Shown here: one piece after another, positions 3,276 to 28,620 of the stretch | Numbering within the stretch: the stretch's first letter is position 1 | Layout: every line of letters starts with the position of its first letter | Virus record (IMG/VR): IMGVR_UViG_3300034106_003588 | Span: 1 to 28,620 of that record | Reading direction: 5' to 3' (one strand) | Source of the DNA: a virus | DNA: 28,620 bases | Made by a program: the position numbers and the translations under genes | The notes under the pieces: model-generated | The model's database searches: none | Seen by the model: the letters and a program-made list of their open reading frames with translations, nothing else | What the model was told of the DNA's origin: nothing

Positions 3276-4276
3276 GGTATTCTGCTCACCTGTCTAACCC
3301 TCTGCCTACAAGCGAAACACCCAGTGTCGGGCATATAAGCCTGCTCAAAATACCTCGACATATAGGCATCATACTGCTGTTGGTAATATTCAACTAACTG
3401 CCCATTTCGCTCTCGGTTGTAAGATATGATGCCATTCAGCCTCTTGGAAAACTCCATTTCCTTCATAATCAGCATACCTGCCTTGTAGAGAAGTGGATAG
3501 CCCAACTGCCCAATATGAGCGCACAAAAGACTCTCAAAGGAACACGCTACCTGGTACTCAATAGAAAGACCACCAGTCCACGAGCCGCCAGATATGTTCT
3601 GCTCAATAACAGCCCCCGTAGCAGGGAACTCCAACGTGCGCTCCAAAACATTATTCTGCCACCTCGAACCACGAGAGCATCCGCCACAGCCATAGACAGG
3701 GTAAAGACCCGTTTGGTAAGACGGAACGGCAGTAGCATTGTAGAGGAAGGCAAGGTTAAGCAACTGCCCATTACTTGTAAACTTCTTATTCACCACAACC
3801 CTCGATGGAGTCCCTGCGGTTGTCTGAACAGGGATAGCCTGCAATACATCACCCGTAATCATATCGTAGACACGCACGGTAACAATCCCCGTGTAGTTCA
3901 CCAATAGGTTTACTGCGGTCAAAGTAACGGCTATGTAGTCGGCCTGCCTATATCTTACGCCTATGCCCCTAAAAACAGCACTCTGAGGCAATGCCTGTAA
4001 GCTCTGAGGCCAAAATCCAACCTGCCCATCCCAACTGCTCGTAGTGTAATTCCACCGATTGTATAAGTAGGCAAGGCTTTCCGCCTGAATCATGTTGGCA
4101 GCTTGGTCTATCTTGCGCTCAATAAGGGTGAAGGCGGTCTTATCCTCCTCATTAACACCCGAATCAATATCACGCATAGATATACCCGTGAGGTCGTTGA
4201 TATACAACCCACTCGAGGGCGTTACATTAGGGTCGCACAAACCCCGTACACCGATTACGTTATTCCAGCAACTCAT
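3272..4276 (-). CDS. Virion structural protein, head-tail connector candidate, 334 aa
   Basis: The N-terminus MSCWNNVIGVRGLCDP, followed by TPSSGLYINDLTGISM, resembles the opening of a structural protein I associate with Bacteroidetes phages. A helix at about 45-70 is followed by an aromatic-rich region and strands. Two paired Cys groups stand out: GCGGCSRGSRW at about 199-209 and GCFACRQR near residue 320, both metal-knuckle-like. Its position just after the capsid gene is where connector or adaptor proteins usually lie. It is the first gene of a unit: a strong terminator ends the capsid transcript at 4294-4321 and a TAACTTTG box at 4281-4288 ends 4 nt before its ATG. The next gene overlaps by 4 nt. 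The exact function is not settled. Confidence 0.6.
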   Translation of the reverse strand: MSCWNNVIGVRGLCDPNVTPSSGLYINDLTGISMRDIDSGVNEEDKTAFTLIERKIDQAANMIQAESLAYLYNRWNYTTSSWDGQVGFWPQSLQALPQSAVFRGIGVRYRQADYIAVTLTAVNLLVNYTGIVTVRVYDMITGDVLQAIPVQTTAGTPSRVVVNKKFTSNGQLLNLAFLYNATAVPSYQTGLYPVYGCGGCSRGSRWQNNVLERTLEFPATGAVIEQNISGGSWTGGLSIEYQVACSFESLLCAHIGQLGYPLLYKAGMLIMKEMEFSKRLNGIISYNRERNGQLVEYYQQQYDAYMSRYFEQAYMPDTGCFACRQRVRQVSRIP

Positions 4277-6652: not shown

Positions 6653-7462
6653 TTAATTGGTTTCATTTTTAACAGGGACTAACCAATGCCTGCACCTATA
6701 CCCACCTAAATAGTAGAATATGGTTTGAGCATTTGTACCTGGCATCCTCCCCCTCCAATCGGGAAGGTCAGCCCATGCTTGTATCTGATAGTCGGTATAA
6801 GTGTTCCCATTACGCTCAACGCAAAACGGCCTTGAATCAGCAATAAGACCGCCCTCGTATCTAAAATTATCATACCCAAGTGCAGTGTATATCATCATAG
6901 CGTAAGAACGGACTACCGATGAGAACATAATATCCGCCTTAGTATTCAGTAGAGATGATACTAAGCCAAGTTTAGACTGATTTCCGACTATCAGTTCTTC
7001 CAAGGAATCTTCTATCAATGTTTTTGAAGCACCTGCAACCAATAAAAACGTGAAAGTGTTTAGTATCTCTGAAGAAATTTCAACGGAAACATCCCCCAAA
7101 GACTCTAAAATAGTTTCTTCAATAGAAGATTGACCTTCGTCTATCTCCTCCCTTGTGGCCTTAGATATAGAACGGGTATTCAGAGAGCTGTCAATGAATC
7201 CCTTCATAAACTCAACCCTCTCCATGAGGAAAGTTATTGACTCAGATAGCCCAGCCCTCTCTACTGACTCTCTTATCTTTGAACGTAACGTAGCCAACTT
7301 AGCGAAGTTCTCCTCCGATTGGTCTATATCCCCATCCGTATAGGAGAATGTCGATAGAAGAACTAATATCGACTCAAAAAGATTGCTCTCTGTTTGCTCA
7401 TTCTGAGCCGCTATCTTCTTCGGCAGGGAGTCCAGCTCTTGAATTATTCTTTCGTAGTCCAT
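6653..7462 (-). CDS. MuF-like minor head protein, 269 aa
   Basis: The C-terminus is the diagnostic part. RPFCVERNG starts at about residue 211, followed by a W-rich stretch (DLPDWRGRMPGTN), and GGYRCRHWLVPV at 253-264. This matches the C-terminal signature of phage Mu protein F-like head morphogenesis proteins (D-RPFC...W...GGYNCRH). The N-terminal 200 residues are helical and rich in Ser, Glu and Leu. It follows the portal gene, as usual, with a 65-nt overlap; the start ATG at 7462 lies inside the portal C-terminus. No toxin domain is fused to it. It probably sits inside the head near the portal and helps assembly. Confidence 0.85.
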   Translation of the reverse strand: MDYERIIQELDSLPKKIAAQNEQTESNLFESILVLLSTFSYTDGDIDQSEENFAKLATLRSKIRESVERAGLSESITFLMERVEFMKGFIDSSLNTRSISKATREEIDEGQSSIEETILESLGDVSVEISSEILNTFTFLLVAGASKTLIEDSLEELIVGNQSKLGLVSSLLNTKADIMFSSVVRSYAMMIYTALGYDNFRYEGGLIADSRPFCVERNGNTYTDYQIQAWADLPDWRGRMPGTNAQTIFYYLGGYRCRHWLVPVKNETN

Positions 7463-9242
7463 TAGATGTGAATAAGTTTGGCAAAGTTAAGCCCTTTTCC
7501 TTTGGAACGAGCGATTTTGCCACATCTTCTATCTTTTTCTTTTGCTCTAAGTATTCTAAGTTCAGAAATCCCTCATTCTCATAGACTAAATCACGAATGA
7601 TAGACTCAACCTTAAAGTGCATAATAGCCTCCCACTTCTCAATAATGCCAGATGCGGATAGCATCATAACCTCCTTAGCATCCAAATTGAAGTACGGGTC
7701 AACCTTGACTGATAGCTTCATAATGGCACTCTTAACCTCCTCAATAGGAAAGCGAGTGTCCAAATACTGCTGAGCCAACATAGCCCTTGAAAACGAAGGG
7801 GCGTTCTTAATCTCAGTGGTTAGCTCTGCATCAGTCCTCATCTCAAAGTTCTGAGGGTAGCGCATAGCAGGCTGCTGCCAAGAGTCGCCATAACGCATCC
7901 TGCCAATCATATTGATAGCAAACTGAAAGTCAGAGAATACAACACCCGAAAAACTTAACAGGAAGCTATACAACTCCTCCCTATCAATAGCCTTACCCGT
8001 AGCCGTTTCCCTGCCCGAAATCTTCTCATTGTTCATTACGTCAATGCTCAAAAGCTCGAAAGCCATCTGAATATTAGTAATGACCTGTTTGTTTAAGAAG
8101 TCAAGGATTTCGTGTTTTACGTCAATGAAGCCAGCAGGCGGTATCTGAATCTTGGTTTCAGTTTCGGTAGTAAACCTATTCGGTGCTTGAACCTGATAGA
8201 CGGATAGCGGACCAAACATCCTGCGTGTGCCCGTGCCTCCACAATTTGAACAGGCAATAGCAACCTTATCCTCAAAGCCCAATGCCTCTTCGACCTGCCC
8301 CGAACCATTACACTTGTCGCACTCATCTACATACTCCCACTTCTGCAAGAAGGCATGAGAAAACTTACTCATCTGCAAGGTCGAAAAGTCATTTACGGCC
8401 TGGTCTAATGCAGGGATGGCAGGGGTGTAAAACGAATGGTAGTAGTAATCTCCATCCTCTTGAACCGAAATGCCACCAAGTCTTACGCAGGGAAGAACAC
8501 CCATATTGTGTCGGTAGTACAACTCAATGTCAAAGGTGTAGTCGCTCTTTTTGCCTACCTGAGTGGCTATCAGAATCTCATTCTTATCGAAGATATAAAA
8601 CACAAGGCCATCCTCAACCTCTTTCTTCTCCGAGCCTAAGTGAACCTTTGAACTATGCTCTGCACGGATGATAGCATACTCCTCATCCTTCCATCCCCAC
8701 ACCTTCTTACTCTTGAAGCAATATGCCGTTGGCTTAACCTCGACAGTGTCGTTGAACGTTCCATCCTCAAAATACTCCAAGCCTACGGGCATAATGCCCA
8801 ACACAGCGTTGGGGTCGGTCAGCGTAACGAAAGTTACTATCTGCTGAAAGTAAGTTTCAATACTGCCAAAGCGAGGGTAGTCCTCATTGAAGTAACGCTC
8901 CTGCTCAATATTGCCGAAGCGTATTTCATAGTTCTGTCTGTTCCAAACCCTACCAGCAACGTTTACCGCCTTGTGGAAGTACGGAACAGTAATCGGCCTA
9001 TAAATCTGCTTGCGATAGTTGAACTCGTGCGGAAGCTCATTAGGGGCTTTCTCTTTGAGTAGCTTTTCGGGGAAGGCATCATAGTCCGAATGTACCTTTA
9101 GGCGAGCAGCCATATCGACACAAGCCCGATATGTTGGGTAAAAGTCAGGCACATAGAACTTATCCGAGCGTTTCTTAACCTCGTAAATAGCATACTCCTT
9201 CGAGATATGGGCTAACAGCTCGGTAGCCTTTTCGAGGGTCAT
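7398..9242 (-). CDS. Portal protein with an inserted CxxCxGxG zinc-knuckle pair, 614 aa
   Basis: A large protein at the head of the head module with the length and gene order of a phage portal. It has an N-terminal alpha/beta part, a central region, and a C-terminal helical region with QVITNIQMAFELLSIDVM and repeated amphipathic helices. Residues 308-341 hold an unusual insert: C308-x2-C311 with NGSG and C331-x2-C334 with GGTG. This is the repeat of DnaJ-type zinc fingers (CxxCxGxG twice, four zinc ligands). It starts with ATG after a purine-rich GGGGGGAG stretch, one of the few Shine-Dalgarno-like sites in the window. A TACCTTTG box at 9297-9304 gives a leader of about 50 nt. The C-terminal 22 codons overlap the MuF gene. 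Confidence 0.8.
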   Translation of the reverse strand: MTLEKATELLAHISKEYAIYEVKKRSDKFYVPDFYPTYRACVDMAARLKVHSDYDAFPEKLLKEKAPNELPHEFNYRKQIYRPITVPYFHKAVNVAGRVWNRQNYEIRFGNIEQERYFNEDYPRFGSIETYFQQIVTFVTLTDPNAVLGIMPVGLEYFEDGTFNDTVEVKPTAYCFKSKKVWGWKDEEYAIIRAEHSSKVHLGSEKKEVEDGLVFYIFDKNEILIATQVGKKSDYTFDIELYYRHNMGVLPCVRLGGISVQEDGDYYYHSFYTPAIPALDQAVNDFSTLQMSKFSHAFLQKWEYVDECDKCNGSGQVEEALGFEDKVAIACSNCGGTGTRRMFGPLSVYQVQAPNRFTTETETKIQIPPAGFIDVKHEILDFLNKQVITNIQMAFELLSIDVMNNEKISGRETATGKAIDREELYSFLLSFSGVVFSDFQFAINMIGRMRYGDSWQQPAMRYPQNFEMRTDAELTTEIKNAPSFSRAMLAQQYLDTRFPIEEVKSAIMKLSVKVDPYFNLDAKEVMMLSASGIIEKWEAIMHFKVESIIRDLVYENEGFLNLEYLEQKKKIEDVAKSLVPKEKGLTLPNLFTSNGLRKNNSRAGLPAEEDSGSE

Positions 9243-9313: not shown

Positions 9314-9928
9314 TTAACTTTCCTTTGGAGTAACAAAACGGCAGTTATAGAGCAGTATGTCAGCATCCCACAGTCCTAATATATTCCAATCATCACCCAA
9401 CAAATCGAGTATCCTCCTGCAAACAGGCTTCCCATTTACATCTATCAGATTTCCCCAACGAACAAAGATTAAGCTGGTATTAGACGTATGAGGCAGGATG
9501 TTTTTGAGCAAGGTCAGCTCCGCATTGTACCAGTCAATCCATAATAGGTCGATGTAGGTGAATTGCTTATGCAGGAGATAGCTATCAAGACTTCGGGTGG
9601 GCACTTCAACCATGTGCCTGTATGTAACGCTCGGAGGCATAGAGCCCTCATAAGTTGTCGTAGTGTTGTAGGCATAACGCTCACCCTTTGTCGGCCTCCA
9701 CATCGTCATCCTCGAATCCTTATCCGTAATAGCACAATAGTTCATCTGAACATTGGTGGGCAGGTTCGGTATTGGGCCTTCTGCCAACGGCTCGAAGGCA
9801 TGAACCTCTGAACCAGGTATCTCGGCAAGCTTCCTCGTAACCGAGCCATCCCTTGCGTTTATTTCGATTATCAGACTTTCCTCAACGGACTCTAAGCACT
9901 CTTTAATGTACTCAATAGGTTGCTTCAT
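9314..9928 (-). CDS. FkbM-family-like methyltransferase, 204 aa
   Basis: Resembles the SAM-dependent FkbM methyltransferases that O-methylate sugars. A motif-I-like LIIEINARDGSV lies at 19-30, where the family usually has GANDG; here the first Gly is Asn. An acidic strand EVHAFEP is at 41-47. The family-typical VPTRSLDSYL is at 109-118, followed by LLWIDWYNAELTLLKNI at 128-144, which aligns with the usual lwiDveGaElevL. The family Gly is replaced by Tyr-Asn, so activity is uncertain. It overlaps the upstream glycosyltransferase by 4 nt (ATGA) and is the last gene of the cassette. The likely role is methyl capping of a glycan made by its neighbours. Confidence 0.7.
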   Translation of the reverse strand: MKQPIEYIKECLESVEESLIIEINARDGSVTRKLAEIPGSEVHAFEPLAEGPIPNLPTNVQMNYCAITDKDSRMTMWRPTKGERYAYNTTTTYEGSMPPSVTYRHMVEVPTRSLDSYLLHKQFTYIDLLWIDWYNAELTLLKNILPHTSNTSLIFVRWGNLIDVNGKPVCRRILDLLGDDWNILGLWDADILLYNCRFVTPKES

Positions 9929-10677
9929 AGGTGTTTTTTGAACTCATTGAAAAATGTTTCGTGTGGATATTGAATTGGACTATTTATTTGTATTTTCATT
10001 TTAGAGCTAAACATCCCCGATATTCCATCTTCATTGGGAGCATATTTTTTTGGCAGGTTAGGTATATCGCACTCATAAAACCCGGCAAAACACCTATTAA
10101 AAAGGCTGTATTTAGCTATACCAGGCTTAACCCCATCATCTCTAACATCGCTGCTTAAATTATGTATGTGCGAAGATGTTATTGATAGCGGGAAGAATCC
10201 GTATGTTTCTATATGCCTATAAATTATATCCCCATCTTCTTCACCAAATCCCAAAAACCTTTCATCAAACCAGTTTAACTCTGCAAGGGTGTGTTTGGCA
10301 ATAACGAAATGAGAGAAAGAGCCGTTAATAGTAAAAAAATTAGACTTAGTTATGGACACTTGATATAAAGAGTCCATAAGAATCGTTGGATTGCTTATAC
10401 GAACATCATCATTTAATAGAAGGATATGAGAGGTTGGGCAATGTACTACAAGGTCATTCCACATTTTTGCCAATCCCCTCATCTCTTGATAGAAAATTGG
10501 GCTCACATTGTCGTGTTCAGACAAAAAGGAAAGCATCTTCCTGCGATATTCATTGTCTAACCCCGTTTTGCTAGACGCATTTACGGCAACTATCACATTA
10601 AACCCACTCAAATCTTTCATAAGAGGAATGAAATGGGATTCAAACCTTTCCTTGAAGGTGGTTATGCCAATATACAT
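9925..10677 (-). CDS. GT2-like (GT-A fold) glycosyltransferase, 250 aa
   Basis: The N-terminus MYIGITTFKERFESHF resembles the opening strand of GT-A enzymes. Residues 86-92 (LLLNDDV) carry the NDD variant of the DxD metal/nucleotide-sugar motif. Residues 143-150 (GFGEEDGD) carry the acidic ED motif before a basic I-Y-R, seen in GT2 and GT27-type enzymes. The start chosen is the ATG at 10677, which overlaps the stop of the preceding methyltransferase by one base (TGATG). A GTG three bases further up is an alternative. The sugar donor and acceptor cannot be read from the sequence. It sits between two methyltransferases in the glycan cassette. Confidence 0.75.
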   Translation of the reverse strand: MYIGITTFKERFESHFIPLMKDLSGFNVIVAVNASSKTGLDNEYRRKMLSFLSEHDNVSPIFYQEMRGLAKMWNDLVVHCPTSHILLLNDDVRISNPTILMDSLYQVSITKSNFFTINGSFSHFVIAKHTLAELNWFDERFLGFGEEDGDIIYRHIETYGFFPLSITSSHIHNLSSDVRDDGVKPGIAKYSLFNRCFAGFYECDIPNLPKKYAPNEDGISGMFSSKMKIQINSPIQYPHETFFNEFKKHL

Positions 10678-11195
10678 CACTTGGCCTTAACTCCCCAAAA
10701 GTATAAGTCCCAGCCCTGATGAGATGCCTCACACCTTTCAAACGGCAGCCCTTCTAACGCAGACTCTAAATCTTCCTTAGAAATATTTCTATAATAGTCG
10801 GTTGTAAATGGAGAGTTCCATCCTTCTGATTTTTTTGTGCCATGCTCAGGGCGGCCAGGTGCAGCGCAGGTAATTACAATAAGTCCCCCTGGCTTACAAG
10901 CTTTATACATAGCCTTAATGCTCTGTTCCCAATACTTATCGTGTTCTAGCATTTCGCCAGAGATAACCACATCAAACCTCTTTTTGGTTTTTTCAATCCA
11001 CTCGTGAATGTATGCTACAACATCTACATTTTTCCCCTCACCAATATCCATCCCAAGATATTCGCAGTCCTCAAAAAACTGCAAATTACTGCCATTTATA
11101 TCCTGGCTTCCCACGTCAATAACTGTCTTACCCTTAAACATTTCGGGGAAGGCTGCCTTTACCACGTTTATGAAATCTACCTGTTGCTGGTGCAT
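10677..11195 (-). CDS. Class I SAM-dependent methyltransferase, 172 aa
   Basis: Rossmann-type methyltransferase of the Methyltransf_11 kind. Motif I is VIDVGSQDINGS at 25-36, motif II is an acidic GMDIGEG at 48-54, the post-motif strand RFDVVISGEMLEH lies at 73-85, and a CKPGG turn before a hydrophobic strand lies at 100-109. The C-terminal part (HQGWDLYFWGVKAK) is short but normal for this family. It starts with ATG 3 nt after the stop of the upstream GT10-like gene. It may methylate a sugar or a lipid-linked glycan, given its neighbours. DNA methylation is less likely because no DPPY or NPPY motif is present. Confidence 0.8.
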   Translation of the reverse strand: MHQQQVDFINVVKAAFPEMFKGKTVIDVGSQDINGSNLQFFEDCEYLGMDIGEGKNVDVVAYIHEWIEKTKKRFDVVISGEMLEHDKYWEQSIKAMYKACKPGGLIVITCAAPGRPEHGTKKSEGWNSPFTTDYYRNISKEDLESALEGLPFERCEASHQGWDLYFWGVKAK

Positions 11196-11198
11196 AAA

Positions 11199-12062
11199 TC
11201 AGTTGTTTAGTATTGTTTCCTTTATTTTCTCGTATATATTATGTTTACTCATATACTTCTTTTTCCAGGCTTTTATCGGCTGAATGAAGTCATCATAGTT
11301 AGTGGACTGCAAGATATGCTCTATCTCCTTTACGGCATACTTAGGATTCCTAAAGTTTTCTAAACTAATCGCAAACGGAACGTGCTGCTTAATATTCCTC
11401 GCCCCTACATAAATAGGTATGCAGGAGCATAGAACCGCATCTATAATCTTGTCCGATATGTAATCATCCCAAATGCCGTTCTCAATGCAGACCGAAAATT
11501 GAAACGGCAAAAGCCCCGTAGCCTTGTTGGATAACTCCCCCTTAACGCCCTTGAAGTTTAAGCCCCTGCCATAGACCGAACACCACCCTGTTTGGGCAAG
11601 CTCACGAGCCAAACGTATGCGGTATTCGTAAAAGCCTCCCGATATGTTGGAGGTTATCATGCTTATCCGTGCTGTCTTTTTTGGGGCGGTCATAAACTCC
11701 TCAAGCTCCCCATGCAGGTGATAGAACATCCCCATCGGGAAGCCCACAAGATTGCCCTCTATGCCGTATGCATAAGGCTCTGCGCAGGTGTAAACAACCG
11801 AACAATATGAGCCGATATTCCTGTCGAAGAAGTTGTGGTCAGGAGGCTCTTGAATAAAGCCAATAACCCTTTCTTTGGGCACTTTAATATCGAAGTTTTC
11901 CTTTGAATTAAAAACCACAAGCCATTCGTAAGAGTCATCAACAACGAACTCTACATTGTCCTTGAAGTGTTTTGCCGTCATAAATTGGTCAATAATCCTG
12001 TCGTGGATAGAGAAACTATCTGTCCAGTTGGTTATCACCCGTATTTTAGTTGGCTTATTCAA
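11199..12062 (-). CDS. GT10-like (fucosyltransferase-type) glycosyltransferase, about 287 aa
   Basis: The C-terminal half contains the hallmark of alpha-1,3-fucosyltransferase-like GT10 enzymes: FSVCIENGIWDDYISDKIID, then CSCIPIYVGA. This matches the family EN...DYvsEKi.dAl..G.vPiy.Ga block; here the E of EK is D. The N-terminal part has the GFIQEPPDHNFF segment and a strand-rich Rossmann-like half. No ATG occurs before residue 40 of the longest frame, so a TTG must be used. I chose the TTG at 12062 (overlap of 8 nt with the preceding gene, start MNKPTKIRVITNW) over the TTG at 12095 (overlap 41 nt), because neighbouring junctions overlap by 1-8 nt. The donor is probably GDP-fucose, by family. 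Confidence 0.75.
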   Translation of the reverse strand: MNKPTKIRVITNWTDSFSIHDRIIDQFMTAKHFKDNVEFVVDDSYEWLVVFNSKENFDIKVPKERVIGFIQEPPDHNFFDRNIGSYCSVVYTCAEPYAYGIEGNLVGFPMGMFYHLHGELEEFMTAPKKTARISMITSNISGGFYEYRIRLARELAQTGWCSVYGRGLNFKGVKGELSNKATGLLPFQFSVCIENGIWDDYISDKIIDAVLCSCIPIYVGARNIKQHVPFAISLENFRNPKYAVKEIEHILQSTNYDDFIQPIKAWKKKYMSKHNIYEKIKETILNN

Positions 12063-12693
12063 TGCGACTAATAAAATTTCTTTTTGTTCTGTCAATGTTT
12101 TGAAGATTAGTGTACTGCAAATCTTTGTTTTGGTAATAAGCTACCCTATCGTCATCAGAATGTTTTATAGTTTCAATGCAGCAGATAAAAGGCTTTTGAT
12201 GAAATCCCATTCGTTCTACCCGATAGTAAAAATCAATGTCCTCAAAGCCCCATCCATCAACATTTTCATTATACCCTTTTGCTCTCGTAAATAGCTCTTT
12301 CCATATTAAACAGCATCCTGTCCCATCTCCATACCCCCAGCCATTCAAAAAACTGCCACCAACTAACACATCCCCAATATGGTTTTTTAAGAAGTTGTTA
12401 TTAGTAAGCATAGCATCGGCATCTATGAAAAAAAATATATCAGCCCTGTCATCTGCGTTTAATGCGCCAATATTTCTGGCCTTGCTGAGATTAAAGAACC
12501 CGCTTTCATCATGGGCTTTAACAGCCTTAACCATCGGGTTTCCTAAGTCAAGAACATAGTCAAACGAATTGTCAGGGTCGTCATAATCAACAACGATAAC
12601 CTCTATCTCAAATCCATTTTGAGAAATCCATGTCGGCAAGCACTGCTTTAAATGGTGAAGCCTTCCCTTACAGCTTGTAATAAATGAAATCAT
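12055..12693 (-). CDS. GT2/GT27-like glycosyltransferase, 212 aa
   Basis: GT-A glycosyltransferase. The N-terminus ISFITSCKGRLHHLKQCL is a typical GT2 opening strand and helix. Residues 91-95 (DADAM) are the DxD metal motif. Residues 147-158 (GWGFEDIDFYYR) are the ED motif of the galactosyltransferase-type C-terminal domain, placed as in GT27-like enzymes. It starts 2 nt after the stop of the upstream gene. The downstream GT10-like gene starts within its end. The small size shows a single catalytic domain with no membrane anchor, so it probably works on a soluble or capsid-bound acceptor. Confidence 0.8.
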   Translation of the reverse strand: MISFITSCKGRLHHLKQCLPTWISQNGFEIEVIVVDYDDPDNSFDYVLDLGNPMVKAVKAHDESGFFNLSKARNIGALNADDRADIFFFIDADAMLTNNNFLKNHIGDVLVGGSFLNGWGYGDGTGCCLIWKELFTRAKGYNENVDGWGFEDIDFYYRVERMGFHQKPFICCIETIKHSDDDRVAYYQNKDLQYTNLQNIDRTKRNFISRIE

Positions 12694-12695
12694 AG

Positions 12696-13634
12696 TTATC
12701 TTGGCGGCCTCCCTTCTGCTAACAATCTTGATTTATTGGCGTGTTTAGCAGCCGACATTTTATGCCACTTGTACTCATGCGTTAGCCCCATATGCTTGTG
12801 GTAATCCATTAACTTTTTGTCGGCAAACTCCCACATAGCAGCCGAGGTGAACCCCCTGCCTCCATAAAGCCCTAAAAACCAGTGATTTTTTTCAGCATCA
12901 TATATCACCTCTTTGGGCACGGATTGGTGAGCAAACATTATCGGATATCCCCCAAAGTCAGGGTTTATGCCCAACTGCCCACAGGCTACATTAAGGGCAA
13001 GTTCATCAGGATATGTATTCCCCCAGGGCATAGACAACTCACTCAAAGGAACGCCATTTCTAGCATTTTCTCTTGCCTGCTCATAAAATCTATTGAGGTC
13101 ATCTCCTTTTCTTAAAACAAGGAAAGAGGAGTTTATAGCTGGCACAAGGGCATCTTCACCTATTTCGTGGTACTTCCATATCTTTTCTAAGGTTGCCCAC
13201 TGCATTTCAGGGAACTCATTTCCATCCCTTTTATAGTTGCCCATTGGAATGGCATCCTGTCCTCTAAATCCCTGCGCCTTCTGAGCATAAAAACATCCTT
13301 TTATGGCGTTAGCCTTGTTAATTATTTCGTCTAATGGGCGAAGGCAAATTCCATCTACATCGAGGTATATGTTCACATCGTGGACTAAATACCTGTCTAT
13401 GTTTAGCTTAGCCATACCAGGACTAAACAAACCATTTTGATATAAATCCCTTTCGTCAATCGGAGTTCTTATGCTGAAAACCCAAGACTTGTGGTCAGGG
13501 AGGCTGTACTTATCATCGTGAATGAGATGAATCGGGATGTCGTTATTAAACCTTCGGATAGATAAGGCCATATTATAGGCCATCTGATAGTATTCCTTCT
13601 TACCGAAGGCCATAAGAACGATTGCTGTACTCAT
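12696..13634 (-). CDS. GT-A-type glycosyltransferase, first gene of the glycan cassette, 312 aa
   Basis: A nucleotide-sugar transferase-like protein. It has an N-terminal strand STAIVLMAFGKKEYYQMAYN, a strand PIHLIHDD, and YLDVDGICLRPLD at 90-102 with a DVD (DxD) motif, similar to GT8-type enzymes. It carries a conserved-looking WATLEKIWKYHEIGEDALVP. A longer frame begins at 13688, but that extension encodes the terminator hairpin and U-tract of the gene upstream (13641-13677), so the ATG at 13634 is the real start. A TACTTTTG box at 13640-13647 ends 5 nt before it, which indicates a leaderless transcript. It probably opens the operon of six glycan genes down to 9314. Confidence 0.7.
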   Translation of the reverse strand: MSTAIVLMAFGKKEYYQMAYNMALSIRRFNNDIPIHLIHDDKYSLPDHKSWVFSIRTPIDERDLYQNGLFSPGMAKLNIDRYLVHDVNIYLDVDGICLRPLDEIINKANAIKGCFYAQKAQGFRGQDAIPMGNYKRDGNEFPEMQWATLEKIWKYHEIGEDALVPAINSSFLVLRKGDDLNRFYEQARENARNGVPLSELSMPWGNTYPDELALNVACGQLGINPDFGGYPIMFAHQSVPKEVIYDAEKNHWFLGLYGGRGFTSAAMWEFADKKLMDYHKHMGLTHEYKWHKMSAAKHANKSRLLAEGRPPR

Positions 13635-13639
13635 GGGAA

Positions 13640-13647
13640 CAAAAGTA
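13640..13647 (-). promoter_or_regulatory. TAnnTTTG promoter box for the glycan cassette
   Basis: The minus strand reads TACTTTTG, a match to TAnnTTTG. It overlaps the U-tract of the preceding terminator and ends 5 nt before the ATG at 13634. The placement gives the cassette its own start and makes the first mRNA nearly leaderless. Confidence 0.55.
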
Positions 13648-13677
13648 AACAAAAAGAGCCGCCATAAGGCAGCTCTT
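13641..13677 (-). terminator. Rho-independent terminator after the tail-tube candidate
   Basis: On the minus strand a 10-bp stem (AAGAGCTGCC and GGCGGCTCTT) with a UUAU loop is followed by UUUUUG and further U-rich sequence. One pair is a G-U wobble only in the minus-strand RNA, so the orientation is minus. It begins 21 nt after the stop of the 193-aa gene and leads straight into the promoter of the glycan cassette. Confidence 0.85.
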
Positions 13678-13697
13678 AATGTTACCAAACTCTAAGA

Positions 13698-14279
13698 CTA
13701 AAGAGTAGCGAAGAAAGTTGGAGGCGCAGGGTACTTCTGAATACAATCTCCTACGGGGATGTAGGCAGAAGCCGTTACCTCAAACATCTGCAACGCACGG
13801 TCATTATCTGGAACCATCAAAGCCGCACGGTAGTTCGTGGGATTTGTAATCACCATCACTTCATCGCTTCCGCACAAGTACAGAATCAAGTAAGTGGTCT
13901 GAGTGTTCAGGTCGCAGTAGAACTTAGTGTTTCCGTTGGAAGGACCTGTTGAACTATAACCCGTAGCATTGGCATCCTGCCAAGTGCAAGTCCAGTTAAA
14001 GCCTACGAGAATGTTCTCAGGGCCACAAGCAATCGGATTGGGCACTTCAACAGCAGCAGGAGATGCAACAGTCCCCTTAATACCAGCAATACGGAATAGT
14101 TGTTCGGCATCAACGGTATCTTGGTACCAAGTATCGGTACTCCAATCCCCAGGATTCGCAGGAAGTTCAGCATCGCAAAAGACGATAGCAGCAGCGGAAA
14201 TACCGCCAAGTTTATAAGCTCCGCAATCCACAATTTCGTGTGGGGGCAACTCGGAGCATTGTATTGAGCAAAAAGCCAT
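13698..14279 (-). CDS. Tail-tube protein candidate, 193 aa
   Basis: The N-terminus is Cys-containing (MAFCSIQCSELPPHEIVDC) and followed by GAYKLGGISAAAIVF. The middle is strand-rich (NILVGFNWTCTWQD, TTYLILYLCGSDEVMVIT) and the C-terminus is AYIPVGDCIQKYP. I do not recognise the family from memory, but size, all-beta look and placement suit a tail tube protein. It is a single-gene unit: a TATATTTG box lies 70 nt upstream at 14350-14357 and a terminator follows. Such a unit fits a highly made structural protein. It follows the distal tail genes, whereas tube genes usually precede the tape measure. An alternative is another major virion protein. Confidence 0.5.
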   Translation of the reverse strand: MAFCSIQCSELPPHEIVDCGAYKLGGISAAAIVFCDAELPANPGDWSTDTWYQDTVDAEQLFRIAGIKGTVASPAAVEVPNPIACGPENILVGFNWTCTWQDANATGYSSTGPSNGNTKFYCDLNTQTTYLILYLCGSDEVMVITNPTNYRAALMVPDNDRALQMFEVTASAYIPVGDCIQKYPAPPTFFATL

Positions 14280-20700: not shown

Positions 20701-21396
20701 TGAAGAACGAGCCTCGGAAGCCGCCCTTTCTCTTGCTGCCCTTTCTGCGGTTTGAACAGATTGCCGAGCTTTTTTAGCCTCTTCTTTTTCAAGCCTGCTA
20801 AGCTCTTTCTCCCACCATTTAACGTATTCTGCATCAGCCTTTTTCTTGGCCTCTGCCTCTCGCTGCTTAGCCTTTACTCTTTCCTCACCAAGCTTTAACC
20901 TGCGCTTTTGAGATTCGGCAGCAGCCCTGTCCATCTCTGCAAGATGAGCTAACCATAGCCTTTTGGTTTCTTGGTCGTACTTTTCTACATCCTTAGCAGT
21001 TTTTCGCCTTCTATTTACATCGTCATTGGCAAACTTCTGCCTGCGGGCATCAACATTTTTTTCATATTCAAGGACATTGGAAAAGAGCTGTTTTATTATA
21101 GACTCAGTTTCCTTAGCCCAATTTTTGTAGTTAGACTTTGGCGGTGGCGTGCTGGCAGCCTTTTTTAATGAATTTGCGGCAGTTTCGGCAGACTTAGATG
21201 CACCATCAGATGCTTTTTTAATATCTTCAAGTGCCTTTTTTGTCGTAGATTGAGATGTTGCCTTCGACATATCTTCTAAGGCCATCTTGGTGGCGAAAAC
21301 AGAGCGACTGAGCGTCTCGTTTATCTTAACCAGCTCATTGAGTTTTGTTTTTAAATTCTCAACGTTTGCCGTGTACTCGATTTGTATTTTTGCCAT
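17734..21396 (-). CDS. Tape measure protein, 1220 aa
   Basis: The longest gene. Residues 1-275 form a helical, Lys/Glu/Arg/Ala-rich coil. Residues about 280-480 carry the N-terminal tape-measure domain with FAVGSIVSFGEEVIKLLA, GTGAGNAAFIRLSSSI and QMGESLPGAAMLMF, typical of the TIGR02675-type tape measure. Long coiled coils with many Glu/Lys pairs follow to about 1035. A hydrophobic segment (ITATILAAGVVAVGATQL, about 1055-1077) and a PEFHEGG element come near the C-terminus. By the common rule of about 1.5 angstrom per residue, the tail would be roughly 180 nm. It starts inside the -1 frame of the tail chaperone pair by 38 nt, a usual arrangement. Confidence 0.9.
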   Translation of the reverse strand: MAKIQIEYTANVENLKTKLNELVKINETLSRSVFATKMALEDMSKATSQSTTKKALEDIKKASDGASKSAETAANSLKKAASTPPPKSNYKNWAKETESIIKQLFSNVLEYEKNVDARRQKFANDDVNRRRKTAKDVEKYDQETKRLWLAHLAEMDRAAAESQKRRLKLGEERVKAKQREAEAKKKADAEYVKWWEKELSRLEKEEAKKARQSVQTAERAARERAASEARSSKQREAEQKRLTRETEREERRRVVATQKAEAERVKASQSSTESMMKPLLALRGYVSAAFAVGSIVSFGEEVIKLLAKLELLESRLGFIYGGTGAGNAAFIRLSSSIKELGLEYEETLEQATSFSIAAQQAGYTTTQVEKMFISFASSLRAAGSSSLQVQRSFYALQQMMSKGVVSAEELNRQMGESLPGAAMLMFKAYKNLHPELVQNFEDFRKLQKEGKILSAEVLPEFIRVLEEEFGPALEGKKNSLSARLNRLSQAYTAFKASLLDTAPIKNATSALENMLNKMTALMSSKRLSFFEKLLGFSGGPSAEFIQLKAEVEANLKLEEANYIQTKVQEKNLALSKLTKEEQQERYNNLEKEIKAYKTYLELISKTPEGADFLDRYAITSPQVAPQLQRPETMAGFDITKRGYRDISKVELSIAEQLLRDLGVMISSEGAPTGDEDKESPRIKFLEQEILLLKAKIMAEEDAIKVINEKAEFEIKTTETLVSLKIKLAEAEEKVALLKASGAGETAIAMAKKESEVLQQQIELRQHEEQLMIDNLELQKMIIQQRLLLVKEGSIEEYKLREELLRKNQAIEILKAKENSELVKKITADTNAEIKKMYQGLANEVKDFMAEVRQLQEEPFMDEVSKQADEITKKYNKTIQELRDKFQKNVLSSGGFTQFDITQTATTTSPMLAEPNILAGIADQAQVEKVKKATEELEKEISKLIAARDKLLQDLGKGEKDFLGLSPDELEKLQKALQVAIDLFQDYYDARTEIAKNAIEKEQALLDKKFEAGLIRENEYNEETKKNKEEMAKLDRDAARFGVLINTAQAIVKLYTDFDAITATILAAGVVAVGATQLSAINSAPLPEFHEGGLDIKKNDNKKPNKGLKSGEFYAKLLEGESVMTREETTKYKDVLKAIREDSLPSQIIRGYAAPAYHRSMDEPYRMAKEQTSLELAFQNAELVDAIRRNGAVAIKNPDEIADAIVSKSSYTKITNRRRIR

Positions 21397-21694: not shown

Positions 21695-22185
21695 AAAAAA
21701 TCATACAACCCCTTCCCTTTGTAGTTCTTTCTAAATGTTTCAATCTTCTTCTGCTCAAATTCAGCATCCCAAACGCCAGGGTCTTGGTCCTCCCTAATGA
21801 GCATACACCCAGATAACTCCATCATAATTTCGGGGTGAAGAAGCAGCTTCTTGCGCTCTTTCATCTCGCCTATTAAAAATCCGATTTTCGATAGACCTTT
21901 CAACTTCTCCCCACTTGTCGACTCAAATAGCGCACTCTCCATCGCTTCCAAAAACTTGTCCAACTCACTTTCACTCACCATCCTCTGCAACTGCAAAACA
22001 AAGTCTTGCGCCCTGCCAAGCCTCTCAACAGGCATCTCAAAAAGGGTTTCGTAGACGTAGTACCTATGCCCCTCACAGGTGAAGGCATACTTCAACCCTT
22101 GGTTCTTCTTTGGTTTGTAAGTAGAATCCCAAACAAGCTGATTGAATTGTCTTGGAAACCACTTGTAGAGCAGTTCTGCTATCAT
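21526..22185 (-). CDS. Tail-assembly chaperone, unshifted form (gpG-like), 219 aa
   Basis: Begins MIAELLYKWFPRQFNQL and continues with a helical, charged protein (VERLGRAQDFVLQLQRM, then SELDKFLEAMESALF). The start chosen is the ATG at 22185 because it overlaps the stop of the preceding gene by 4 nt (ATGA). A longer frame to 22230 overlaps that gene by 49 nt. It lies just before the tape measure. The C-terminal 55 codons lie beyond the slip heptamer T TTT TTC and are lost in the shifted product. No family was recognised; the role is inferred from position plus the -1 overlapping frame. Confidence 0.7.
   Translation of the reverse strand: MIAELLYKWFPRQFNQLVWDSTYKPKKNQGLKYAFTCEGHRYYVYETLFEMPVERLGRAQDFVLQLQRMVSESELDKFLEAMESALFESTSGEKLKGLSKIGFLIGEMKERKKLLLHPEIMMELSGCMLIREDQDPGVWDAEFEQKKIETFRKNYKGKGLYDFFVLGGLNQFFPNFSSFEKDWEIYWEMAQARLKALNKTVEYFPSVGNFTTKINNLGS
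21694..21700 (-). other. Programmed -1 frameshift slip site T TTT TTC
   Basis: On the minus strand T TTT TTC stands in the reading register of the 219-aa gene (GAT TTT TTC), which is the X XXY YYZ form. It is the first base block after the TGA that opens the -1 frame, so the shift can occur only at or after it. I see no strong stem-loop downstream. A second, weaker spot is TAT TTT CCC nearer the end of the overlap. Confidence 0.55.
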
Positions 22186-22803: not shown

Positions 22804-24133
22804 AGGGAATGTGTTTATATCCGCTTTTTTTCAAGTGGTAAATATACCACTCCCCTAAGAATGTGTGGAAGGCATAGCGAACACAATCTCCGTGGTCGGC
22901 TAACTGAGTTATAATATTCCTGTTTCTTTTTACTATCGTGCCCATGGCATCGCATTTGAGCATCCTCAAGTCCCTCGAAGTGTTGGGGCAGCTCTTAGGA
23001 TTCACCTTGAAGTCAGGGTAGTGCCTTAGAATGTAGTTGCACTCGGCACGGGAGTTCTCGTGCTTAGGGTTGTCCTGAACGCGGATTTGCTTCCCCGATA
23101 GTTTAAGCCCACGAGCTAACTGCTCATAGTAGTTAGCATTATCCCTCTGAGATAAATCGCCCCTCTTGCCCATAGCATCGCCCGTTATCTGACACATCGG
23201 AAGGTATGGCTCATATCTCTCCTTAATCGTGTCTATCATCTTTGGTATAGAGCCATCGGGAACGGAGAACTCATCGACTATGTGGAAGTGTTCGCCATTG
23301 TCATCCTTCCACTTGTGGGCAACAATGCCAGCAAACGGCTGTAAGTTGAAGTCGAAGGCAAATAAAATCGGCAGGTTCGGGTTGAAAAACGCGCCCTTAT
23401 CCTCATGATCTTTTGGCTCAAATGCCGTGAAAAATGGGTTTTCAGGCTTTTCCTGAACCTCCCAGTCGCCCTCAACGAAACGCAGGTACTCATATTCAGG
23501 CATATTGGCCTTCAGTGAGTTTAGGTAGTCATCAGGGATGTGCGGGTTATCCGTAATCTTTGATGGAATGTATGCCCACGTTTCGGGGAGAGTGCCCTTC
23601 ATCCATTGGTCGTAAACCTTCTCCTTCACCCAATTATTCGCAGGGTTGCACGTTCCCAATACTACAATAGGGGGGCGGCCTTCAGCGTTGTTCCATGAGC
23701 CCGAGCGTTCAAGCATCTTGTAAAGGGTAGCCTCCTGACACTCGTTAATCTCATCAATACCGCCTCCGTTTATCTCCAAGCCCTTAAACCTGTCCAAGTC
23801 TTTATCGGTGTCGTAGTTCTCACCCATAAAGATGAGTTCAGAGCCATTGGTGAAGGTTATTACAAGGGAAGCCTTATCGTAAGAAGATATATAGTGCCTA
23901 AGACCCTCTGCTAATAACGTATTGAACGTAACCATAGTGGTTCGCTCTAACGTTGGCCTCGAGGCACGAACTATGCACCAACGAGATTTTGGGTATTTAG
24001 AGCAAAGTGATATAAATGTGAGTAGAAGCCAGTAAGTTTTGCCTCCCCTAATCGCCCCCCCGAATAAAATAAACTGCTTCTCCCCACTTAAAGCCAATTT
24101 ATAGGCTAACGTCTGCTTTGCCGTTAGTTTCAT
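22790..24133 (-). CDS. terL: Large terminase subunit (packaging ATPase-nuclease), 447 aa
   Basis: Walker A is GGAIRGGKT at 25-33, Walker B is GGGIDE at 123-128, and the coupling motif TCNP is at 161-164. The C-terminal nuclease is RNase-H-like: LFAFDFN (D261), then GDAMGKRGD (D319), and a later Asp-rich segment with YPDFKVNP. All parts of a functional terminase are present and the length is normal. It cuts the concatemer and drives DNA into the head. It overlaps TerS by 35 nt and is followed by small Cys-rich and membrane proteins, then tail genes. Terminase usually stands beside portal; here the portal gene is about 13.5 kb downstream. Confidence 0.92.
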   Translation of the reverse strand: MKLTAKQTLAYKLALSGEKQFILFGGAIRGGKTYWLLLTFISLCSKYPKSRWCIVRASRPTLERTTMVTFNTLLAEGLRHYISSYDKASLVITFTNGSELIFMGENYDTDKDLDRFKGLEINGGGIDEINECQEATLYKMLERSGSWNNAEGRPPIVVLGTCNPANNWVKEKVYDQWMKGTLPETWAYIPSKITDNPHIPDDYLNSLKANMPEYEYLRFVEGDWEVQEKPENPFFTAFEPKDHEDKGAFFNPNLPILFAFDFNLQPFAGIVAHKWKDDNGEHFHIVDEFSVPDGSIPKMIDTIKERYEPYLPMCQITGDAMGKRGDLSQRDNANYYEQLARGLKLSGKQIRVQDNPKHENSRAECNYILRHYPDFKVNPKSCPNTSRDLRMLKCDAMGTIVKRNRNIITQLADHGDCVRYAFHTFLGEWYIYHLKKSGYKHIPYELY

Positions 24134-24530
24134 TGACTTCTTGGTTTATAACTTGTTCATAACTATGCTTCATGGTTTCTACTTCATCCTTTTCTGGTTC
24201 TGTCAGCTCTAAAACAAATGGCTTATTGTCTGCTTCTATCACCTGATTTTGAGGCTTACCATACAAATAGGCTAAGATTAGCTCAATAGCCCTCATATTT
24301 CCCTGGATGCCCATAGTTATTAGTCGAGCGACCAAGCCTTCGGCACGAGTTACACCGTTAATCTTCTTAGATAACTCGGCCTCAATCATTTTTCTTAAAT
24401 CTTTTTTCTTTAGGTCGTCAACCAATACAACGTGCTTAGGGTCTATACCTTTAGTAAACCTCGTGTTTACGCTAACTTCCCGAATGTTTGGGTTGCCTCG
24501 CGTTTCTTTCTTTGGCTCTTTAGATTCCAT
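24099..24530 (-). CDS. terS: Small terminase subunit candidate, 143 aa
   Basis: Placed directly before TerL with a 35-nt overlap. The protein is basic at the N-terminus with helices in the middle (KKKDLRKMIEAELSKKI, AEGLVARLITMGIQGN and AIELILAYLYGKPQNQ), the general layout of phage small terminases with a DNA-binding front and an oligomerising middle, and an acidic C-terminus. The GN..AI..IL..YGKP motif resembles proteins at this position in other phages. A TAACTTTG box at 24536-24543 ends 5 nt before the ATG, so the transcript may be leaderless. The assignment is by position plus fold pattern. Confidence 0.65.
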   Translation of the reverse strand: MESKEPKKETRGNPNIREVSVNTRFTKGIDPKHVVLVDDLKKKDLRKMIEAELSKKINGVTRAEGLVARLITMGIQGNMRAIELILAYLYGKPQNQVIEADNKPFVLELTEPEKDEVETMKHSYEQVINQEVNETNGKADVSL

Positions 24531-27198: not shown

Positions 27199-28263
27199 CT
27201 ATTTCTTTCTCGAAAAACTTTTATACATATTTATTCTTTTATTTTCGTTTTGCTCGGCATTTAGGTATTCAGCCATCCGAGCCTTCAGATTGGATGCAAG
27301 CTCCTGTGCAATCACAGGTTCGTTTATGAGCTGCCTAATCCTCTTGTACCATAAAGAGTGCTTATGCTCAGGGATGAGAAATCCGTGAACACCATCCTCA
27401 ATACAGTCAGCATACATCGGTATGTCAGATGCAATAATAGCCTTCCCCATAATAGCAGCCTCAGATATTTTGAGTTCAGACTTATATGAGTTGAACTTAG
27501 TGTTCCTTAAAGGTGCTAACGAAACATCAACGAAGTTGTAACCACCAATGTAAGAATATATGTCGGCAGCAGCTATCCTCTTGTAATTTATGTTATAGAG
27601 GTTAGAGCTAAAAATATTCTCATAGGCTTTATAAACAGGATTATCGTTCCATCCTGCAAGGTACAGGTTGTATCTTCCATCGAGGCTCTGGTCATGGGCA
27701 AGCTTACCCATAGATATTCGGAGTATCTCGACATCTTCCTCGTGCTGAGCAGCCCCGAAGTAGCCTATCGAAAAAAGGGGTTTATCAACGGTCTTATGAT
27801 GAAACTGCTCGAAGAGATGAGGGTAGGGGATATTAGGCAGTATTTCAACGTTTTTATTCAATTTAAGACACTCTTTTGCCAAATAGGTAGTTGTGGCAAT
27901 AACGGCATCAGAATGTCTTATATGCGCTGCTACGAGCTGAGGCAGATTGTTGTCTAAATAGTGCCTATAAAAGCTATGCCCAGTTCCTAAATGCCAGTAG
28001 TCGTCAATATCGAGTATAACGCCAGCGCCAAAGGACTTCATTAGGGCAAGTCGAGTTTTCATCTCGTCTATATTCGAAGCAAAACTCCTCGAAACAATAA
28101 AAAGGTCTATAATGGAAAGCTCCTGCGTAGTTAAAAGGTCTACATTATCGGTAGAAACCACCGAAATATTAGGGAAAACCTCAATCATACGAGTATGAGG
28201 CATCTCTAACCTATAAAATGCCGAACCCGTGTTGGCAGAAGTATAAAGTAAACATACAACCAT
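27199..28263 (-). CDS. GT4-type (group 1) glycosyltransferase, 354 aa
   Basis: A GT-B enzyme. The N-terminal domain starts MVVCLLYTSANTGSAFYRLE, with ILDIDDYWHL in the middle. The C-terminal domain has the linker SIGYFGAAQH and the family E-x7-E-like segment SYKSELKISEAAIMGKAIIA. The start chosen is the ATG at 28263; a longer frame uses a TTG at 28287. A TATTTTTG box ends 4 nt before it, again giving a leaderless arrangement. It stands alone, 14 kb from the main glycan cassette, and could supply the first or the last sugar to the same glycan. The donor cannot be read. Confidence 0.8.
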   Translation of the reverse strand: MVVCLLYTSANTGSAFYRLEMPHTRMIEVFPNISVVSTDNVDLLTTQELSIIDLFIVSRSFASNIDEMKTRLALMKSFGAGVILDIDDYWHLGTGHSFYRHYLDNNLPQLVAAHIRHSDAVIATTTYLAKECLKLNKNVEILPNIPYPHLFEQFHHKTVDKPLFSIGYFGAAQHEEDVEILRISMGKLAHDQSLDGRYNLYLAGWNDNPVYKAYENIFSSNLYNINYKRIAAADIYSYIGGYNFVDVSLAPLRNTKFNSYKSELKISEAAIMGKAIIASDIPMYADCIEDGVHGFLIPEHKHSLWYKRIRQLINEPVIAQELASNLKARMAEYLNAEQNENKRINMYKSFSRKK

Positions 28264-28267
28264 GAGC

Positions 28268-28275
28268 CAAAAATA
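28268..28275 (-). promoter_or_regulatory. TAnnTTTG promoter box for the GT4 gene
   Basis: The minus strand reads TATTTTTG and ends 4 nt before the ATG at 28263. It is the first of the four boxes with the near-ATG spacing. Confidence 0.5.
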
Positions 28276-28287
28276 GCACCTCAACAA

Positions 28288-28450
28288 AAAAAAACGAACA
28301 CATTAAACTATTCATATGCAAAACCCCCTGATATTCAGTGAGTTATGGATATGTATTATTTTATTCGCGGTACTACTGTAAAAAAATGGCTGAGCTGTTC
28401 ATATAATATATATATTATATATATACTGTTTATGCAATATATATCCTATA
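28288..28450. other. AT-rich non-coding block with a 20-bp AT palindrome
   Basis: No convincing gene is seen. A perfect palindrome, ATATAATATATATATTATAT, lies at 28401-28420, with more AT repeats to about 28430. The block leads into the 20-bp direct repeats. An AT-rich melting region next to repeats suits a replication origin or a regulator-controlled promoter region, but nothing here proves either. A small plus-strand frame crossing it (from 28345) has a composition set by the repeats and is not counted as a gene. Confidence 0.5.
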
Positions 28451-28543
28451 CAATATATGTTTCAGATTATCAATATATGTTTCAGATATACAACATATGT
28501 TTCAGATATACAACATATGTTTCAGAATTATCAACATATATTG
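28451..28543. repeat. Four tandem 20-bp direct repeats plus a partial fifth (iteron/operator-like)
   Basis: The unit is CAACATATGTTTCAGATATA. Copies start at 28451, 28471, 28491 and 28511 (the fourth is 21 bp), and a shortened fifth lies at 28532-28543. Copies 3 and 4 each hold a perfect 10-bp palindrome AACATATGTT; copies 1 and 2 have AATATATGTT. The 20-bp period is close to two helical turns, so a protein bound to each palindrome would stack on one face of the DNA. No spacers, so it is not a CRISPR. Confidence 0.85.
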
Positions 28544-28559
28544 CTAATTCTGAAGTATA

Positions 28560-28587
28560 GAAAAAAGAATATAAATATTCTTTTTTC
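28560..28587. other. 13-bp hairpin with U-tract, terminator-like in both directions
   Basis: The inverted repeat GAAAAAAGAATAT / ATATTCTTTTTTC has a 2-nt spacer and is followed by a pyrimidine-rich run to 28614. The arm itself carries six T residues, so it could end a transcript arriving from either side. The gene it serves is outside the window. Confidence 0.45.
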
Positions 28588-28620
28588 TTTTTGGTTCTTT
28601 TTCTTTTTTCTTTTGCAAAT

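Follow-up and report, generated by a model that had tools for sequence, protein, structure and literature searches.

The gene-free block at the right end of the viral DNA analysed here may, at about an even chance, be the second of two initiator-recognition sites, an oriR-like element serving a late replication start or fork stalling; this reading is drawn from sequence comparison and from analogy with phage SPP1. The window is the entire 28,620-bp viral record, and its minus strand carries most of the genes, the structural ones included. The block was taken as everything to the right of the start of the first late gene, a glycosyltransferase (GT; Pfam Glyco_trans_1_4, 27199-28263, minus strand, with the ATG at 28263 taken as the start and the longest ORF beginning at 28287), as far as the end of the contig. 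A replication origin, a silencing operator or a packaging site had been proposed for it in the sequence-only reading. The origin is the best supported of these because of the sequence shared with the initiator gene (rep), the extreme AT-richness and the SPP1 precedent, and the operator found little support.

The repeat structure of the block is far from chance. Tandem Repeats Finder (TRF) reported a 20-bp period with 4.6 copies and 89% matches at 28447-28539, and TRF together with exact core matches delimited four 20-bp direct repeats of the TATACAAYATATGTTTCAGA type at 28447-28526. Exact copies of CAAYATATGTTTCAGA start at 28451, 28471, 28491 and 28511 in the window, and allowing up to three mismatches added one weak site, at 21051 (mean 0.59 and maximum 3 over 100 shuffles). 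Units 3 and 4 each contain the perfect palindrome AACATATGTT, at 28492-28501 and 28512-28521, which makes two occurrences per 28.6 kb as compared to 0.02 expected. The 20-bp AT palindrome ATATAATATATATATTATAT at 28401-28420, in which 20 of 20 bases equal their own reverse complement, is a candidate unwinding element. Folded as single-stranded DNA, 28401-28587 gave -29.8 kcal/mol vs. a shuffle mean of -13.1 (z = -6.5).

The four copies, the two palindromic units, the AT palindrome, the hairpin and the lack of genes described in the sequence-only reading were all confirmed, while two of its details had to be amended. The partial fifth copy exists, but its orientation is inverted, which had been overlooked; it forms a dyad with unit 4 at 28516-28559, the 22-nt arms of which (28516-28537 and 28538-28559) are 82% complementary. 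The terminator-like hairpin at 28559-28588 has a 14-bp perfect stem and a 2-nt loop and is almost all A/T, but with two G-C pairs only it fails the terminator rule, which requires at least three. The 30-mer of this hairpin was found identical in five viral-contig stretches. An A/G-rich tract, AAAAGAAAAAAGAAAAAGAAC (28594-28614, minus strand), recurs without a mismatch as a 21-nt stretch in the initiator gene of G005, a sister contig, and a second A/G copy, AAAAAGAAAAAAGAA (28578-28592, minus strand), also occurs in that gene. No credible gene was found in the window block, where the ORFs listed over the array coincide with the repeats themselves. The block contains no known RNA family: Rfam, with the gathering score as cut-off, had no hits in the window, L087 and L089 and two tRNAs in L086, and ARAGORN gave three hits in L087, L086, L089, L221 and L090, all outside the block.

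Before the first late gene, the relatives examined usually have AT-rich repeats or dyads. The closest of them, L007, L009/L088 and L087 (GT 95% identical, TerL 99% where present), retain the hairpin, the array and the palindrome with one unit fewer, and in L089 (GT 83-85%) the 20-bp spacing is retained with altered units (TRF, 4.5 copies). In alignments the AT palindrome at 28401-28420 is also present in L087 and has an altered form in L089; the inverted-copy dyad measures 22 nt at 86% complementarity in L087 and a shorter 18 nt at 89% in L089. L221 ends within the array. A second group, L085, L086, L090 and L091 (GT 96-97%), has a different block sequence, which in L086 forms an inverted repeat, imperfect and with arms of 73 nt, and by eye is alike in the other three. 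L084 (GT 53%) has a hairpin followed by a 14-bp unit, and L023 begins inside such an array. More distant contigs have units of 15 bp (L024-L027), 16 bp (e.g. L057) and 19 bp (e.g. L060), the 16- and 19-bp units being palindromes with TATAGA/TCTATA halves; TRF detected no array in the blocks of L028 and L031. The place and style of the block persist, and the unit sequence and period change by lineage. The absence of the repeats from all close relatives, which had been named as counting against a function, was not observed, since the repeats are present in relatives. The proposed helical phasing of about two turns per unit did not hold up: with periods of 14, 15, 16, 19 and 20 bp among arrays in this position, phasing is not what has been conserved.

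The genes upstream of the block differ between relatives. L087 has there a 509-aa ORF, amidoligase-like by eye, and a class-II glutamine amidotransferase (Pfam), with a similar arrangement by eye in L045, and other genes stand upstream of the block in L060, L057 and L086. When the window group (A) was compared near 28268 with the second group (B; L085, L086, L090 and L012), DNA homology began just before the glycosyltransferase start, as if the early module and the array had been swapped as one unit. Among isolated phages, 223 records matched TerL, all at less than 60% identity, the best among the 40 matches listed being about 30%. Elsewhere in the window, 7398-9242 encodes a 614-aa protein, taken by eye for the portal, that carries a DnaJ-like CXXCXGXG motif (E 1.4e-4, below the Pfam cut-off), and a cluster of glycosyltransferase- and methyltransferase-like genes was seen by eye within the structural region at 9314-14279.

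Base composition was evaluated along the contigs. The AT-richest 150 bp coincided with the block in 14 of 16 contigs, the exceptions being G016 and L091, and in L091 it lies in rep. The next AT-richest place after the block was rep in G001, G002, G005, G009 and L221. The ends of G001 are identical over 99 nt, and this contig is probably a whole circular genome (44,367 bp) that the assembler split at its array. A GC-skew check, suggested in the sequence-only reading, did not single out the block: the detrended minimum and maximum fell at 37455 and 23767 in G001 (block start 1), at 3615 and 23870 in G002 (block start 372) and at 27930 and 5825 in G003 (block start 24990), G002 and G003 not being closed circles. 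A skew turning point is supportive of an origin, not defining. The TA-skew extremes of G001 (27474 and 42635) are near transcription switches. Short-repeat arrays resembling ATCGTCAATCGTCAA were observed in three lineages (G001 42640-42708, G003 21995-22137 and G005/L114 9175-9330), near the early/late junction in G001 and L114.

Evidence for the origin reading comes from the initiator gene. The leftward early Rep of L087 matches PHROGs 9327, 270 and 9474 (E 3e-8, 6e-8 and 4e-6), annotated as primosomal or replication initiation; its gene adjoins a DnaB-like helicase gene, and an Erf-type annealing gene lies within the same leftward run. Local alignments were made between each block (290 to 801 bp) and 400-bp windows covering the entire contig, with about 250 bp around the block left out. 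Fifteen contigs were examined, 11 containing block and rep and four lacking rep; the 11 represent about six lineages and hence are not 11 independent tests. The window's own rep lies outside the contig, and the sister contigs G005 and L221 stood in for it. In all 11 contigs the best match of the block elsewhere was the middle of rep, and the score exceeded all 200 dinucleotide shuffles in 10, that of G009 being tied by one of 200. As a control, rep was the best partner of four of 66 other AT-rich 400-bp windows from the same contigs. The block and rep are about 7-9.5 kb apart in nine contigs, G002 and G008 being left out because the distance there runs across the contig ends.

Because rep is coding, synonymous codon shuffling of the gene (500 rounds) was also applied. 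The window block score was reached by 8 of 500 shuffles of the G005 rep and by 9 of 500 of the L221 rep. With their own reps, the counts per 500 were 0 for G001, G008 and G016, 2 for G002, 3 for G014, 5 for L091, 7 for G007, 9 for G005, 10 for G003, 18 for L221 and 23 for G009. The L089 block scored 46 with the 88%-identical reps of L316 and L317, which 16 and 13 of 500 shuffles, respectively, reached; L316, from the same sample, appears to belong to one genome with L089. Similarity of block and rep is seen at the DNA level, and the codon-preserving shuffles support sharing.

The pairing is specific to the contig in some lineages only. In G014 and G016 the block and the contig's own rep have about 100 bp of ordinary-complexity sequence in common, positioned downstream of the AT array, or within a block that has none, and these blocks score 64 and 74, respectively, with their own reps vs. 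maxima of 50 and 39 among the eight remaining reps of the matrix. Segments common to block and rep are also present in G001, for which the own rep is best as well (48). The window, G005 and L221 blocks score 48 with the G005 or L221 rep and 46 with the L091 rep, and the L091 block ties at 46 among its own, the G005 and the L221 reps. The own rep was beaten in G003 (42 vs. 50), G008 (47 vs. 50) and G009 (34 vs. 43). In the window lineage the shared DNA is the low-complexity A/G-rich tract beside the array, and masking one A/G copy lowered the score from 48 to 35; the 20-bp unit itself has no word of at least 10 nt in common with the G005 rep.

Several further relationships were explored. With a 9-mer consensus that we presume to be that of the DnaA box, 10 similar words were counted in eight blocks with flanks (shuffle mean 1.8, maximum 5), four of them in G005 and none in three blocks; this enrichment is a lead only. 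Conservation of the rep tract as a cis-element gained no support, since 11 A/G-tract codons are unchanged between G005 and L316 but two other 15-codon runs are unchanged too. Simple pairing of array type with the Rep N-terminus likewise gained no support: G001 and G003 both have TATAGA-like halves, and by eye their Rep N-termini differ. In ten windows of Flavobacterium phage 11b some intergenic repeats match each other.

If the block is a second origin, the first initiator site would lie inside rep, about 7-9.5 kb away, as the counterpart of oriL. The initiator would bind the repeats at the block and the rep-internal site, and unwinding would take place in the AT palindrome with the AT-rich array. 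At a late stage of infection the block might fire or hold up a fork, which would cause the switch to concatemer synthesis. A bolder and distinctly more tentative proposal is that the twin sites, located in rep and at the beginning of the late operon, form a fast co-evolving initiator-origin lock, in which the DNA word is rewritten jointly by lineage with the architecture fixed; it could possibly set replication incompatibility between co-infecting phages, in hosts that are probably Bacteroidota. This lock is rated less probable because a contig's own rep stands out as the best match in just part of the lineages.

The possibility was considered that the block is a rapidly evolving repeat hotspot without function, which matches rep merely through shared AT- or A-rich composition. 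Contigs often stop in or beside the block (the window, L221, L023, L038, L076 and G001), the unit sequence is not conserved and the own rep is not always the best match. However, similar arrays recur at the same place despite different sequences, composition-matched controls fail, and the segment of about 100 bp that G014 and G016 have in common with their own reps is of ordinary complexity, so we hold this explanation to be improbable. More improbable still is an initiator-bound control site without origin activity, such as a replication-fork barrier or a Rep titration site. Its evidence from rep similarity is the same as that for an origin, and oriR of SPP1 has itself been modelled as a fork barrier (PMC6316719 and PMC3485210), but the adjacent, very AT-rich palindrome would suit unwinding. 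Upstream control of the late operon, in which late transcription would be activated or repressed by a phage regulator bound to the array, is rather unlikely. The array does precede the first late gene, be that terS (L045, L057, L060) or the glycosyltransferase (window, L087, L084), and a box of the TAnnTTTG type, which we take to be the Bacteroidota -7 consensus, precedes this gene as well. In the window the box is TATTTTTG (28268-28275, minus strand), and a box of this type is found at the same place in L087, L089 and L086; in eight of nine first late genes the end of the box is 4-8 nt away from the assumed start codon, and the ninth, that of L064, has the box as well. Since the box is so close to the start codon, the array stands upstream of the first late gene in the window at a distance of about 180-290 bp, not within about 100 bp of the promoter, and the silencing master operator of the sequence-only reading loses ground accordingly. 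Across contigs the array is separated from the start by some 125 bp in L060 and some 740 bp in L040, the two extremes, which is long for an ordinary operator. By eye, moreover, a tRNA-like sequence intervenes in L040, and a terminator-like C-run and T-run lies between array and terS in L040, L045, L057, L060, L064, L075 and L079. From the presumed -7 consensus we would guess that the hosts are Bacteroidota; a host search through related TerL gave 16 genome-contig stretches that matched the pattern and no relatives. A second tandem palindromic array, approximately TGTCC-N9-GGACA with four copies at a 19-bp period, was observed in G001 (L281; 42731-42824), L048 (681-757), L066 (759-835) and L067 (7465-7541). 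In G001 it is near the point where leftward early genes meet rightward ones, and it is perhaps a better operator candidate than the window array.

A packaging site, where the small terminase would bind the tandem repeats and packaging would start beside them, is unlikely, yet it keeps weight because TerS is 63% identical (over 113 of 143 aa) between array types A and B where six other proteins (GT, amidase, DUF5872, TerL, g22465 and g21526) are 93-99% identical. The window TerS is encoded at 24099-24530, and the B-type TerS was taken from three contigs (L012/L090, L013 and L015). Divergence between A and B is not confined to TerS, however, as the MTase (66%), tape (56-60%), rep (57%) and holin (81%) differ too. 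In L045, L057 and L060 the array is upstream of terS with no long same-strand ORF between them, and in the contigs read a C-rich motif is situated very roughly 150-330 bp ahead of the array. Nevertheless, 34 of 36 family contigs, found via a motif just downstream of the C-rich run in a search blind to contigs ending there from the other side, run through it, and the other two, L039 and L079, start no more than about 5 nt from it. On this count, and with the same blindness, the C-rich motif is not supported as a fixed cohesive end. L065 begins about 10 nt before the run; contig starts are scattered, and array breaks may be assembly breaks. Phage lambda cosB consists of protein-binding sites near terS. 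The pac region of SPP1 has such sites near terS as well (PMC6316719). This differs from the window lineage, where about 4 kb separate the block from terS; the best partner of the block is rep rather than terS (terS being excluded where it is less than about 250 bp from the block).

To our knowledge, replication origins are known for only a minority of uncultured phages. Matching AT-rich non-coding blocks by sequence to initiator genes, one lineage after another, could provide a simple origin prediction from metagenomes, and the block with the rep-internal segment would be a concrete candidate site pair for the switch from circle to concatemer replication. Among the literature matches listed, titles and abstract openings reported no twin origins in Bacteroidota phages. 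In phage lambda the ori lies inside gene O and consists of iterons with internal dyads and an AT-rich stretch. It resembles the rep-internal site, an instance being the 21-bp repeats of the L091 rep, and differs from the window block, which is non-coding; we know of no second, intergenic ori copy in lambda. A twin-origin case known in detail is SPP1. Its two origins each comprise direct repeats and an AT-rich unwinding element, oriL lying inside the initiator gene 38 and oriR in an intergenic segment of the late region between transcriptional signals; G38P binds both, and the proposed stalling of forks at oriR would trigger concatemer synthesis (PMC6316719 and PMC3485210). Compared with SPP1 as described there, the two sites are closer together here (about 7-9.5 kb vs. 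12-13 kb), the units are tandem, often palindromic and of varied period, and the Rep N-terminus varies by lineage. The likenesses are that the block is non-coding, lies in the late region in a segment flanked by transcription signals and has direct repeats and an AT-rich element, that a second, similar site is found inside the initiator gene in 11 of 11 contigs, weaker and of low complexity in the window lineage, that the phage encodes a DnaB-type helicase and an annealing recombinase, and that the genome is near 44 kb in both (44,016 bp in SPP1 and 44,367 bp in G001).
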